Shown here: piece by piece, positions 1,138 through 6,595 of the stretch
Layout of the letters: each line of letters starts with the position of its first letter
Numbering within the stretch: position 1 is the first letter of the stretch
DNA from: a virus
DNA: 54,578 bases
Virus record (IMG/VR): IMGVR_UViG_3300009180_002134
Span: 1 to 54,578 of that record
Reading direction: 5' to 3' (one strand)
Notes under the pieces: generated by a model
The model's database searches: none
What the model was told of the DNA's origin: nothing
Seen by the model: only the letters and a program-made list of their open reading frames with translations
Translations under genes and position numbers: made by a program

Positions 1138-2181
1138 TTAATCTCTTAACAATCTTACTGAATATCCACGGGTTTTTATAACATTAGCATTATACACTGC
1201 AGTTCCAGTGTATAATAAATAAAATACGTATGCATTTGTTAGACCAGAAGTTGAAGTCCAGTAATTTGAAGTTTCTGTTATATCTAAAAAATTCTGATAG
1301 TCATCACAACCACCACCACCTAAAGCTGTAAACGCACTACTATTAGTAGCTCCAGTATTTGGAGTTTTCCAATGTGTTAACCCAGTTTCTTTTAATTCTC
1401 CTCCAGCTACTGATCCACCTCCTAAAGTTGTAATTAAAGTTTCCCACTCCGTTTTTGTGGGTACATGATAACCGACAGGAGCTAAACCTCTAGGATCTGT
1501 TACAGCATAATTATTATATAGCTTTCCATAAATTGGACCATTTGCAGAATCATTATTGTAATAACACCATGCACCTGTAGTTGCTAATACCCATTCTGCT
1601 GGATCTGTTATTTCAGGTATAATATCTCCATTTCTGTATCTATCAACATCTAGATTTCTACTAGTCCATTCTTGAGTACCAATTGTTTGTGTAGTACATA
1701 TACTGCATTCACCATCCGTTGACCAAATAGTAGATATAGTTCCTACATCAGCAGGACCAGTTGTTACACTGTCTACATACCAACATTCTGGAGTGTCATT
1801 ACTAACAATAGTTCCTTGAATCAACTCTTGAGTTCCTGTATATCTTATTGTATGATATTCCATTCTTTCACAACCAGCCACTCTATAGTATTGGGCTGTG
1901 TCACAGCATAAATCTACAACCACTTCTTTCCATACACCGTCCTTAGGATATGACTTTCCCACTATTAAACTACCGGGAACTATCTGACCACTTTTAGTAT
2001 ATCTCACCCATCCTTTAGGAGATGCAGTGATTACACCTGGAAGGTCTGTATCACAACAAATATTAGTGGGCACTTCTGTATATAAACCATCAATAGGATA
2101 GCTTCCTGCAGTAAGAATGAGACTTCCTGGTATAAGTCTACCTTGTTTAGTATATTTTACGAATGCACGTTTCTTAGCCAT
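1138..2181 (-). CDS. Tail-fibre-like protein with Fib_succ_major domain
   Basis: This 347-residue protein is a probable receptor-binding or fibre protein. The first ~95 residues are two copies (about 1-45 and 58-95) of a module that reads R-A-F-V-K-Y-T-K-Q-G, then P-G-S-L-I, and ends in a Cys-Cys-Asp-Thr. The same module opens the next gene upstream. From about residue 166 to the end it matches the Fibrobacter succinogenes major paralogous domain, common in Bacteroidota surface proteins: an early Glu-W-T-S-R-N-L-D-V, a W-C-Y-Y-N-N-D segment, G-K-L-Y-N-N-Y-A-V, a P-V-G-Y-H-V-P-T-K-T-E-W-E block, Y-W-T-S-T-S, and the final S-V-R-L-L-R-D. The shared N-terminal module probably anchors different C-terminal domains to the same virion part (inference). 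Confidence 0.8.
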   Translation of the reverse strand: MAKKRAFVKYTKQGRLIPGSLILTAGSYPIDGLYTEVPTNICCDTDLPGVITASPKGWVRYTKSGQIVPGSLIVGKSYPKDGVWKEVVVDLCCDTAQYYRVAGCERMEYHTIRYTGTQELIQGTIVSNDTPECWYVDSVTTGPADVGTISTIWSTDGECSICTTQTIGTQEWTSRNLDVDRYRNGDIIPEITDPAEWVLATTGAWCYYNNDSANGPIYGKLYNNYAVTDPRGLAPVGYHVPTKTEWETLITTLGGGSVAGGELKETGLTHWKTPNTGATNSSAFTALGGGGCDDYQNFLDITETSNYWTSTSGLTNAYVFYLLYTGTAVYNANVIKTRGYSVRLLRD

Positions 2182-2192
2182 TTTATTTTACT

Positions 2193-3182
2193 TTATAAAC
2201 TATTTAAAAATGGTGTTGTTAAATCTGTCCATCCTGATACAGAGTTATATTTTTTAAATGAAGTAACATTTACATATGCATTGTATCCATAATCTACATT
2301 AATAAATGTACCACTGCAATAGAATACATCTACATTAGCTCCTACATTAGCTGCTATAATACCAGATGCTCCTGTTAAGAATGTATCTGATGCCACTCTA
2401 ATATATTCTGTAGCTAGTTTAACACCAGCACCATACTTAGTAGGATCTAATACAAAGTTATAAGGAGCAGAACAAAGTGTAGCTCTATTTGCCCATAGTA
2501 TAGTGGCAAGAGTGAAATACTGATCATTATTAGCAAATACACCAGCTCCTCTCACTGGAGTGGGACCACCAGCTAAATTAGTCATAACCCATTGAGCAGC
2601 TGTAACAACAGCACCACATGTGTTATCTGTCAAAGACTGAGCTTGAGTTTTACCTTTTCTCCACATACGCCCTACATTACCAACTTGTGATATACCTATA
2701 TGAGGCATATTTACTAAGAACAAAGCTCCATTAGCTGTAATATGAGAAGCCCAAGCTTGCAATCCTAACACCCCTGTATGAGGATAACCTGCTAATCCTG
2801 CACCAAAAAATGGTCCAAGAAAACTAGATTGTTGTGCCGAAGTTTGTCCCAAGTTGCCAACAAGCTCAACAGCATTAACATCATCTGAACATACATCTGT
2901 ACTAAGAAGTACATCTTTATAACTGTATCCTTGAGTTTTAATAAACTCTTTAGTAGCTTCAGCAAATCTTAATGCTGATATAGCATCTTCATATTCATCT
3001 TGAACAGTGATGTTGTATGATGTTGGATTAGGTGGAAAAACAGAAGTTGTACAACATAAGTCTGCTGGAACTTCATTCCATGTAGCTGGTCCTTGAGGAA
3101 AACTTCCTGCTGTTAGGATTAAACTACCAGGTACAATCTTGCCTTGCTTACTGTACCTTACAAATGCTCTTTTCTTTGCCAT
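2193..3182 (-). CDS. Tail-fibre-like protein with LCIB-type carbonic-anhydrase-like domain
   Basis: This protein has 329 residues. Residues 1-46 are the same anchoring module found twice in the downstream fibre gene. From about residue 60 the sequence resembles the LCIB/LCIC family of beta-type carbonic anhydrases: a Cys-Ser-Asp-Asp-Val-Asn motif (C98), a G-A-G-L-A-G-Y-P-H-T-G-V stretch, Trp-Ala-Ser-His (H147), a Met-Pro-His-Ile-Gly-Ile motif (H161), and Thr-Cys-Gly-Ala (C189). C98, H147 and C189 stand where that family has its Cys-His-Cys zinc ligands, so the zinc site looks kept. The family assignment is from memory of the motif pattern, not a search. An enzyme or a re-used fold for receptor binding are both possible. 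The gene lies in the fibre block, ten bases from the Fib_succ_major fibre gene. Confidence 0.7.
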   Translation of the reverse strand: MAKKRAFVRYSKQGKIVPGSLILTAGSFPQGPATWNEVPADLCCTTSVFPPNPTSYNITVQDEYEDAISALRFAEATKEFIKTQGYSYKDVLLSTDVCSDDVNAVELVGNLGQTSAQQSSFLGPFFGAGLAGYPHTGVLGLQAWASHITANGALFLVNMPHIGISQVGNVGRMWRKGKTQAQSLTDNTCGAVVTAAQWVMTNLAGGPTPVRGAGVFANNDQYFTLATILWANRATLCSAPYNFVLDPTKYGAGVKLATEYIRVASDTFLTGASGIIAANVGANVDVFYCSGTFINVDYGYNAYVNVTSFKKYNSVSGWTDLTTPFLNSL

Positions 3183-3183
3183 A

Positions 3184-3312
3184 TTATATATTTTTTGATT
3201 GTAATTTTGCTTGTTCAGCTTCTAACTTAGCTTTAGATTTATCTAAGATTTCTTGTACTTTTTCAGATACAGGTTTAGGAGCTGGAGGATTAGGAAATAA
3301 AGGTTGTGTCAT
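3184..3312 (-). CDS. Small coiled-coil protein, 42 aa
   Basis: The ATG at 3312 opens a 42-codon frame that ends TAA at 3184-3186, one base before the next gene starts at 3182. The N-terminus is rich in Pro (P-N-P-P-A-P-K-P) and the rest is a Lys/Glu/Gln/Leu helix of coiled-coil type. The exact fit between two genes and the coding-like composition support it. The function is unknown; a small structural or linker protein is possible. Confidence 0.55.
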   Translation of the reverse strand: MTQPLFPNPPAPKPVSEKVQEILDKSKAKLEAEQAKLQSKNI

Positions 3313-3336: not shown

Positions 3337-4023
3337 TTAATCCCACCAAAGGGTAACATTAGAATTTCCTGCTGCAAATTCAAAGTCATAAGATATAAGA
3401 GCTTCAGCTAAATCTGTTGTAGGTACTGATCCATAAGCTTCTAATACAAGACCATAGTTAATTTCTCCTGTAACAGGATCAGCAGGTCCATAACTATACA
3501 TCATCATTTTAACACCATATAATGTATTATACACTGCAGCATCTATATCCCACATTTGAGCACCATCTGCTAAAGGAGTGGTTGTAATATCTAGAGTGGG
3601 ATCATATACATTACCATCTTCTACAGCTGCCACCATTCCTGTTAGTTTACCAGGAAATAAAACAGGGCCTCCAAATATTTCATTAGTAGGTATAATTTTA
3701 ATTGTACCAAGATATTGACTAATTACAGAATTTCCACTATACTGAAGTACTCCTCTCACTCTATAACTATTTACAGTGACAGCTGGAATAAAACCCATAC
3801 CTTGACCACTAGGATATTGATATATAGGACCTGCATCAAATAATGTAGATTCTGGATACCATACAAAAGGATAGTCAAGAGTATGTATTTCTTGATTAGC
3901 TTTATTTTTTTCTACATCATCCACTAATCCATTAAGATGTCCTAATCTAGCAAGACTATTGTCTCCTACTATTTTGTTTAAATAGACTTCTGGACTACGA
4001 GGTTTAAATTTTTTAAGACTCAT
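3337..4023 (-). CDS. Tail-type structural protein (unassigned)
   Basis: This 228-residue protein starts at the ATG at 4023 (M-S-L-K-K-F-K-P-R-S). The frame extends 17 codons further up to 4074, but that part overlaps the 22-codon micro-gene that ends at 4028, so the inner start is preferred. Near the N-terminus is a short segment L-A-R-L-G-H-L-N-G-L-V-D-D-V, a helix of the kind seen at the start of phage tail and fibre proteins. The rest is beta-rich with many Tyr, Gly and Pro residues and no motif I recognise. Its place in the fibre block suggests a virion role (inference). Confidence 0.65.
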   Translation of the reverse strand: MSLKKFKPRSPEVYLNKIVGDNSLARLGHLNGLVDDVEKNKANQEIHTLDYPFVWYPESTLFDAGPIYQYPSGQGMGFIPAVTVNSYRVRGVLQYSGNSVISQYLGTIKIIPTNEIFGGPVLFPGKLTGMVAAVEDGNVYDPTLDITTTPLADGAQMWDIDAAVYNTLYGVKMMMYSYGPADPVTGEINYGLVLEAYGSVPTTDLAEALISYDFEFAAGNSNVTLWWD

Positions 4024-4027
4024 TGTT

Positions 4028-4096
4028 TTATTTTTTAGGTTTAGGAACAGCTGGTTTACCACAGCCACATCCATAGTTAAAAATATTTTTTATCAT
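4028..4096 (-). CDS. Micro-gene, 22 aa, Gly-Cys-Gly-Cys motif
   Basis: The ATG at 4096 overlaps the stop of the upstream holin-like gene as ATGA, which suggests coupled translation. The 22-codon frame ends TAA at 4028-4030, four bases before the next start at 4023. The product contains Y-G-C-G-C-G-K-P followed by a Pro/Lys tail. The precise junctions on both sides support a real gene despite its length. The function is unknown. Confidence 0.45.
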   Translation of the reverse strand: MIKNIFNYGCGCGKPAVPKPKK

Positions 4097-4395
4097 TCTT
4101 TTTTTGTTTTTTCAGTTCCAAAATAATAAGAAAAAATCATCAATGTCAATGTTTTTATTAAATCAAATAATTGATTATTTTGTTCATCAGATAACAAAGC
4201 CATTTTAAATGCAATCACTTTATCAACTATAAAAACACCAACAAGAGCTGCAAATACTAATAAAATAAATCTTACTAATAAATCTTTGGTGTTTGTTGTA
4301 AATAACTTATTAGTAAACCATACACACAATATAACAAATAACAACCCTATAATTACAGCACAAATTTGCTCAAGCTGACTAGGAGAACTAAACAT
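4093..4395 (-). CDS. Holin candidate, membrane protein
   Basis: This 100-residue protein has about three hydrophobic segments: residues ~10-32 (A-V-I-I-G-L-L-F-V-I-L), ~40-62 (F-I-L-L-V-F-A-A-L-V-G-V) and ~80-93. It ends in a short charged tail rich in Lys and Glu. It begins one base into the end of the endolysin gene and is read straight after it, the usual arrangement for holin-endolysin pairs. The holin call rests on size, topology and neighbour, not on a recognised family. Confidence 0.6.
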   Translation of the reverse strand: MFSSPSQLEQICAVIIGLLFVILCVWFTNKLFTTNTKDLLVRFILLVFAALVGVFIVDKVIAFKMALLSDEQNNQLFDLIKTLTLMIFSYYFGTEKTKKE

Positions 4396-4811
4396 TATAT
4401 ACTTTTAAGTTGAAAATGCATTCCATCTTTTCTTTGCCATGTTCCACCCCATTCAAACCCATTGTCTGTAAAACATTTTACAAATCCTGGAGATAATTTT
4501 GGTGTCATATTAAGTCCATTCTCAAATGCATTAAGATCTACAGCTATTCCCCAGCTATGTAAAGACATAGAACCTAAGCCTCTTTTCTTTCTTATATTGA
4601 AACAACCATCCCATGTTTTTAGTTCTTTAACATGTCCTGTTGTAATAAGAGCTTGAATAGCTTTTGCTAATGGTTCAACCATATCTTTGTTACAATAGAT
4701 TTTTTTAGGAATCACTCCTATTTCTAAATATCCTGGAACATCCCATAAGATCATTGCTGATTGTTTATTAGGATCTCCGTATTTCTTTAATGCTTGTGCT
4801 GATGTTACCAT
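4395..4811 (-). CDS. M15-family peptidase, probable endolysin
   Basis: This 138-residue protein resembles D-Ala-D-Ala carboxypeptidase / L-Ala-D-Glu peptidases of the M15 family, which cut peptidoglycan stem peptides. The zinc-site pattern is visible: S-L-H85-S-W-G-I-A-V-D92-L-N, then N-G-F-E120-W-G-G, and G-M-H132-F-Q. There is no signal peptide, so release by a holin is expected. The holin candidate follows directly and membrane/coiled-coil genes precede it, which makes this a lysis cassette. The length fits a single-domain phage endolysin. Confidence 0.85.
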   Translation of the reverse strand: MVTSAQALKKYGDPNKQSAMILWDVPGYLEIGVIPKKIYCNKDMVEPLAKAIQALITTGHVKELKTWDGCFNIRKKRGLGSMSLHSWGIAVDLNAFENGLNMTPKLSPGFVKCFTDNGFEWGGTWQRKDGMHFQLKSI

Positions 4812-5917: not shown

Positions 5918-6595
5918 TTATACTATTATAAGTGTTACAGTATTATTCGTTTGTAAAGTAACTATATTAGGATCTGTAACTAAAGCAGCTGGTAATGTTA
6001 CTGTAATGGTGTTACCAGATATACTATCAAATACAATAGTACCATCCATTGTAATACATTTGTTAATATTAAGAGTCTCTAAAGAAGTGCATCCATTGAA
6101 ACATTCAGTTCCTATATCTATTACACTAGGTAGATTTACGTATCTTAAAGCAGAACAATATCTAAAGTTTTTATCACCACTTAATATAGATTTTGGTAGA
6201 TTTACATACTCTAAACCTGTACATAAACCAAAACTTGCACCACCTGCATCTGTAACTATTCCACCAATATCATTTATACTTAATATACGATTATAATCTA
6301 CAACAGGTGCAAAAATACTACCAAGTGTTAATGTAAAATTAGAACCACCATAGAATCTCTGTGTATCTCCAAGAGTGATCATTGATGTAAAGTTTGAACT
6401 CATGTCAGCATTTGCATCAGAAAGTGTAGGCCAACCATCATTAGTAGCCCCAAATATCACTTCAAAGTATGGTGGATTATCTATTGATGCTTGAGCAATA
6501 GCTTGTGTATTTTTATCTACAGCACAACAAAGTCTTTTCACTCTAGTTGTAAGCCAGTTTAATCTTCCAAATATATCAGAGCTTATGGGATTCAT
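5918..6595 (-). CDS. BspA-type leucine-rich-repeat protein
   Basis: This 225-residue protein starts at the ATG at 6595, which overlaps the previous stop as ATGA. Residues ~1-45 are a helical head with two adjacent Cys (K-R-L-C-C-A-V-D-K). From about residue 120 there are three or more repeats of the LRR_5/BspA kind, such as C-S-A-L-R-Y-V-N-L-P-S and C-T-S-L-E-T-L-N-I. This family is common on Bacteroidota cell surfaces and in phage fibres, where it binds proteins or glycans. A fibre or adhesin role is inferred from the neighbours. Confidence 0.7.
   Translation of the reverse strand: MNPISSDIFGRLNWLTTRVKRLCCAVDKNTQAIAQASIDNPPYFEVIFGATNDGWPTLSDANADMSSNFTSMITLGDTQRFYGGSNFTLTLGSIFAPVVDYNRILSINDIGGIVTDAGGASFGLCTGLEYVNLPKSILSGDKNFRYCSALRYVNLPSVIDIGTECFNGCTSLETLNINKCITMDGTIVFDSISGNTITVTLPAALVTDPNIVTLQTNNTVTLIIV

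Follow-up and report, generated by a model that had tools for sequence, protein, structure and literature searches.

LCIB, LCIC and PtLCIB4 (PF18599; PDB 5k5w, 5b5x and 5b5y) are carbonic anhydrases of algae and diatoms. The classical beta-carbonic anhydrases carry the motif Cys-X-Asp-X-Arg, which provides an Asp-Arg dyad. PtLCIB4 lacks the Arg of this motif and is described as constitutively active (PMC9614477). A carbonic-anhydrase fold, of the alpha type, is also found on the particle of an animal virus, where the vaccinia virus protein D8 serves as an attachment adhesin that binds chondroitin sulfate (PMC4256255). In Bacteroides phages, proteins with a Fib_succ_major domain are putative adhesins (PMC8143477); modular receptor-binding proteins, including the Fib_succ_major/DUF1566 adhesins, combine a constant N-terminal module with an exchangeable C-terminal domain and are encoded in a variable cassette.

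The gene described here has this same modular organization, but with a predicted metalloenzyme in the C-terminal position, where those proteins have lectin-like or beta-helical domains. It lies in a window of 54,578 nucleotides (the whole of the stretch analysed, positions 1 to 54,578 of IMG/VR record IMGVR_UViG_3300009180_002134), which, judged by its genes, is a crAss-like phage sequence; the window ORFs of 2194 and 4490 aa match annotated crAss-like RNAP subunits with 20-26% identity. The ORF of interest (2193-3182, minus strand) is defined by its open frame and Pfam match and encodes 329 aa, consisting of an N-terminal module followed by an LCIB-type carbonic-anhydrase domain. It is transcribed from the strand of the late genes, and the plus strand across the same interval is full of stops. 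A 42-aa Pro/Lys-rich ORF at 3183-3312 (MTQPLFPNPPAPKPVSEKVQEILDKSKAKLEAEQAKLQSKNI) ends just before its start codon. Relative to the algal and diatom LCIBs the whole fold is alike, whereas the phage protein has an added N-terminal module, shares only ~20% identity, falls in a distinct, long-stemmed viral clade, and has no chloroplast or carbon-concentrating context.

The LCIB-type domain and its active site

By sequence and predicted fold, residues 56-329 (2196-3017, minus strand) are a complete LCIB-type (beta/theta-class) carbonic-anhydrase domain. The ORF matches Pfam LCIB_C_CA (PF18599) with E=5.4e-25 (88.4 bits, against a curated cut-off of 25), and none of 14 control genomes searched for the domain was positive. 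In a single-sequence search against solved structures the nearest are 6kfs (E=4.7e-13) and PtLCIB4 (E=1.5e-11); a profile of 24 relatives matches PtLCIB4 with E=2.4e-35 over nearly the whole domain and also retrieves algal LCIB and LCIC. The Pfam match spans only residues 71-204, and a truncated or decayed domain is ruled out by the profile and the model, both of which cover the whole fold.

An initial AlphaFold2 model made from a 24-row alignment had a pLDDT of 72 and a poorly modelled stretch at residues 97-136. A second, made from 50 rows, has a pLDDT of 82.4 and a pTM of 0.78, with low confidence confined to residues 102-112 and to the module-domain linker at 41-48. When the model is compared with the PDB by Foldseek, E-values below 0.001 are seen only for entries of the LCIB family, namely 6kfs (5.9e-15), PtLCIB4 (5b5y_A; 1.9e-14, TM 0.86 on the target, rmsd 3.1), LCIC (1.7e-8) and LCIB (2.2e-8), and the next match is a classical beta-carbonic anhydrase (E=0.012). 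There is no significant structural match in BFVD, a set of predicted viral protein structures. A chance match is ruled out by the E-values, the fold and the conservation. A preliminary description, made from the sequence alone, had proposed an LCIB-type carbonic-anhydrase-like domain at residues ~60-325; this is borne out, the extent is accurate, and the structural comparison is unambiguous. Both sequence and fold place the domain in a known family, and thus it is not a new kind of domain.

Six residues define the predicted active site, all encoded on the minus strand. C98-S99-D100 (2883-2891) would contain the first zinc ligand and a catalytic or fourth-ligand Asp, with roles assigned by homology to beta-carbonic anhydrases and LCIB; H147 (2742-2744) is the predicted zinc-ligand His, from its alignment and invariance; and C189 (2616-2618) is the predicted last zinc-ligand Cys, from profile and alignment. 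The alignment also identifies an invariant second His, H161 (2700-2702), and an invariant Arg, R175 (2658-2660). The metal-binding and catalytic roles of C98, D100, H147 and C189 are assigned by analogy with other members of the LCIB family. These four residues are at equivalent positions in PtLCIB4: H147 aligns with H88 (mutated in entry 5b5z), C98/S99 with Cys/Ser47, such that the phage Ser corresponds to the wild-type PtLCIB4 residue, and C189 with the Cys of CCGS. From this alignment and the fold match, C98, H147 and C189 are expected to cluster in three dimensions. A classical beta-carbonic anhydrase is ruled out, as the segment C98-S-D100-D-V102 lacks the Arg of the classical motif, as does PtLCIB4 (CSDEV).

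The motifs C98-S-D-D-V-N, GAGLAGYP (127-134), WASH (H147), MPHIG (H161) and TCGA (C189) are all located where the preliminary description placed them, and its three proposed ligands, C98, H147 and C189, are conserved without exception in related phage proteins. To these can be added D100, which would be the fourth residue of the metal or catalytic site, and R175, which is likewise invariant. All six residues are identical in every complete family member aligned. Among 39 viral proteins that share less than 90% identity with one another (mean 44%, minimum 30%), invariance extends to just 33 of the 273 domain columns, which include all six key positions; if columns are independent, invariance of six preselected positions is expected by chance with a probability of ~3e-6. 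A search pattern demanding Val or Ile after the Asp pair gave the impression that some relatives had lost the zinc site, which is ruled out by the alignment, where no complete sequence lacks C98 or D100. Because the six key residues never vary in the 39 viral proteins, a degenerate scaffold that functions only in binding is unlikely.

The N-terminal module and its variable cassette

Residues 1-46 (3045-3182, minus strand; KKRAFVRYSKQG..PGSL..W.EVPADLCC) correspond to a probable attachment module, recognised from relatives and the model. A scan of viral sequences with this module gave 35 loci, and it heads more than 30 different proteins of related phages. Where the domains behind it are recognised they are Fib_succ_major (C-type-lectin-like), Lcl_C or LRR_5; others are unrecognised. 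The neighbouring gene (1138-2181, minus strand) carries the module twice in tandem (residues 1-46 and ~55-95), in front of a Fib_succ_major domain (Pfam E=6e-36).

The module-bearing proteins sit in a variable cassette that contains the LCIB gene in some phages and other genes in its place in relatives. One border is an M15 peptidase gene, the endolysin (4395-4811, minus strand; Pfam Peptidase_M15_4, E=6e-15, and synteny), and the other is a convergent vWA-type gene of which the C-terminal part (~311 aa; relatives are ~500 aa) is present at 8-943 on the plus strand. The contig begins inside this ORF and the window is therefore a partial genome. Two further shared N-terminal modules are seen in the window. 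One corresponds to residues 18-56 of a 245-aa product (3337-4074, minus strand) and is common to proteins of other lengths in related phages, and the other to residues 1-22 of a 225-aa LRR_5 protein (5918-6595, minus strand; Pfam and relatives), whose first ~22 residues are common to other proteins. Because these two also recur on proteins of different lengths in related phages, the window lineage seems to use three interchangeable N-terminal modules. A diversity-generating retroelement acting on the cassette was considered and rejected: a search of ten records turned up no reverse transcriptase, a difference from the Fib_succ_major/DUF1566 adhesins.

Relatives in other phages and in Bacteroidota

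Successive queries run against viral contigs gave 14, 19 and 64 loci, and with shared contigs removed there are LCIB relatives in about 70 distinct IMG/VR contigs of uncultured crAss-like and T4-like phages. No relative was found among isolated phages in the 50,697 phage records of INPHARED (tblastn, two queries). The viral LCIB domains bear several unrelated N-terminal modules. Some extensions are related to that of the window (KPYARF..PGSL..WKEVQ and PKKPYVLR..AGTL..W.EV); others are ~84 aa (L095-L115), of the MPNVPN.. type, 137 aa or ~80 aa in length, and the LCIB protein of L151 has a fibre-like extension (MSTLKTNNIEPVSG..ITINSSLTVTGGI) that is common to another protein. Several of these extensions recur in the same phages on proteins other than LCIBs, and that of L116 is common to a protein of 847 aa that contains RCC1 repeats and matches 'baseplate wedge tail fiber protein connector'. 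In the T4-like contigs the LCIB gene is located after the major capsid protein gene (L108), two small genes after it (L151), or after the portal gene (L098); the capsid protein of L108 has its nearest relatives in Synechococcus phages (~36% identity).

Tandem LCIB pairs are present in large phage contigs (L018:9599-11723, L019:9767-11817, L020:9779-11817, L092:3892-5933, L093:3869-5930 and L109:4590-6656), in which the first copy has an N-terminal extension and the second is nearly stand-alone; the active site is kept in all. Near some LCIB genes there are also proteins with C-termini of the form YQCxIHxxMxGxISIK that resemble a cupredoxin copper site (L116:2-934, L116:1000-3543 and L094:2906-3556).

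In a phylogenetic tree the viral LCIBs form one clade (100/100) on a long stem, beside or within the LCIBs of Bacteroidota, the phylum of Dyadobacter. An origin by capture from Bacteroidota is suggested, and no more than suggested, because an AU test does not reject a tree in which the bacterial sequences are kept together (p=0.275). Cellular LCIBs were found in 35 of 395 sampled Bacteroidota genomes (~9%), and the family is present in one of 149 sampled genomes of the phylum of an acidobacterial MAG. Dyadobacter-type LCIBs (e.g. L021 and L023) are among the nearest cellular sequences found, with 26-28% identity to the phage protein, with which they have the CSDDVNA, LGPF and PHIG motifs in common. 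Unlike the phage protein, the Bacteroidota LCIBs are stand-alone proteins of ~240 aa, several of them encoded directly downstream of a bestrophin gene. This arrangement with a Bestrophin_2 gene is seen in Bacteroidota and in the acidobacterial MAG (L021:7042-8771, L022:2779-4508, L023:6905-8615, L060 and L062), and it recalls the pairing of LCIB with bestrophin-like bicarbonate channels in the algal CO2-concentrating mechanism.

Residues 56-191 are under strong purifying selection, with dN/dS of 0.14-0.21 relative to the window lineage's own relatives (L002-L009). A different history is evident for residues ~192-262 (2397-2609, minus strand). This segment has 89% nucleotide identity to L014, compared with 64% before it and 52% after it, and 66% identity to L003, compared with 90% in the flanking parts of the domain. 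The segment is the product of recombination between phage lineages inside the LCIB domain.

Possible roles of the protein

Several features favour a location on the virion: the N-terminus is modular, the gene lies in the cassette and on the late strand, the sister proteins carry lectin-like or LRR domains, and in T4-like phages the neighbours are capsid and portal genes. The module is common to other adhesin-like proteins of the same phages, the C-terminal domain is exchangeable, and the gene lies among late structural and lysis genes, either in the endolysin cassette or, in T4-like contigs, with capsid and portal genes. The label 'fibre-type' given in the preliminary description is thus supported by the swappable shared module and the structural-gene context, with placement on the virion an inference. 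The scenario that we put forward, which could about equally prove right or wrong, is that the gene product is a late virion-associated component of the adhesion (tail-fibre or receptor-binding) apparatus with an active carbonic-anhydrase enzyme, both its location and its catalysis being deduced from sequence and context. The first ~46 residues would be an interchangeable docking module by which the protein is anchored on the particle. At the host surface, the exposed domain (residues 56-329) would interconvert CO2 and bicarbonate or act on a small, closely related substrate. A variable surface, such as that of residues 192-262, would probably touch the host as well. The benefit to the phage is speculative and could be a local change in pH or bicarbonate, or recognition of a CO2-linked surface component. 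Two observations run against such a role. LCIB enzymes are, to our knowledge, not trimers, whereas many fibres are; and the second copies in L018-L020, L092, L093 and L109 are almost without an N-terminal extension, so that an obvious docking module is not a feature of every copy.

The preliminary description had left a choice between a fold re-used for binding and a true enzyme on the virion. If the fold is re-used, the LCIB domain would be a zinc-stabilised adhesin for a host-surface ligand with no useful catalysis, and there are parallels for this in the lectin-like and LRR domains of sister proteins with the same module, in the swapping of a domain segment between lineages as in receptor-binding proteins, and in vaccinia D8 as a precedent for the fold as a virion adhesin. 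D8 resembles the proposed phage protein in having a carbonic-anhydrase-like domain on a virus particle for attachment, but its fold is of the alpha type and we take it to be catalytically dead, whereas the phage protein has the LCIB fold with a full active site, and degeneration of the D8 type is not seen at any of the six key positions. One would expect a scaffold that serves only in binding to have lost a few of these residues somewhere in the family, and yet C98, D100, H147, H161, R175 and C189 are invariant across very different phages. Because the whole active site is conserved without exception, the evidence favours a working enzyme over pure re-use of the fold, and we regard re-use as unlikely, if still a serious contender.

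An intact active site would also suit an auxiliary metabolic enzyme, a cytoplasmic carbonic anhydrase that supplies bicarbonate or buffers the cell during infection and in which the N-terminal segment has no virion function. Some relatives are nearly stand-alone and in tandem pairs, and an LCIB enzyme could be useful in Bacteroidota-type cells given the proportion of sampled Bacteroidota genomes that encode one. However, the N-terminal module is common to adhesin-like proteins of the same cassette, the gene is found in lysis/fibre and capsid/portal neighbourhoods and not among replication or metabolism genes, and several different N-terminal extensions exist; we consider a metabolic role distinctly improbable. 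The position of the gene within the head-gene block of T4-like contigs raises the prospect that the protein is carried inside the particle and enters the host, with the enzyme acting early in infection. An outside position is argued by the presence of the same module at the head of surface-type domains (LRR, Fib_succ_major), and the cargo explanation has very little likelihood. With the virion-borne enzyme as the preferred reading, a broader and more tentative proposal is that the virus-specific LCIB clade is an active carbonic anhydrase displayed on virions, plugged by its modules into unrelated adhesion or head structures, with CO2/bicarbonate chemistry occurring outside the cell in attachment or entry.

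A literature search, confined largely to journals open without subscription, turned up nothing on phage LCIB proteins or on a carbonic-anhydrase phage fibre. With the INPHARED result, this means that the viral LCIB clade, its fusion to adhesion modules and its presence in unrelated phage groups are undescribed as far as the databases and literature searched extend. The LCIB family thereby gains a large viral branch. Because this branch spans two unrelated phage groups and about 70 contigs, the protein in the window is not a single oddity, and the joining of an attachment segment to a carbonic-anhydrase domain with an intact site, with relatives in so many other uncultured phage sequences, suggests that the particles of some phages may be equipped with an enzyme for CO2/bicarbonate. 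Polysaccharide-degrading enzymes and lectins are familiar components of phage fibres. If the proposal is true, a fibre-type protein bearing a carbonic anhydrase whose active site is untouched would represent a new virion-borne chemistry, and would raise the question of what role CO2 and bicarbonate have during attachment.
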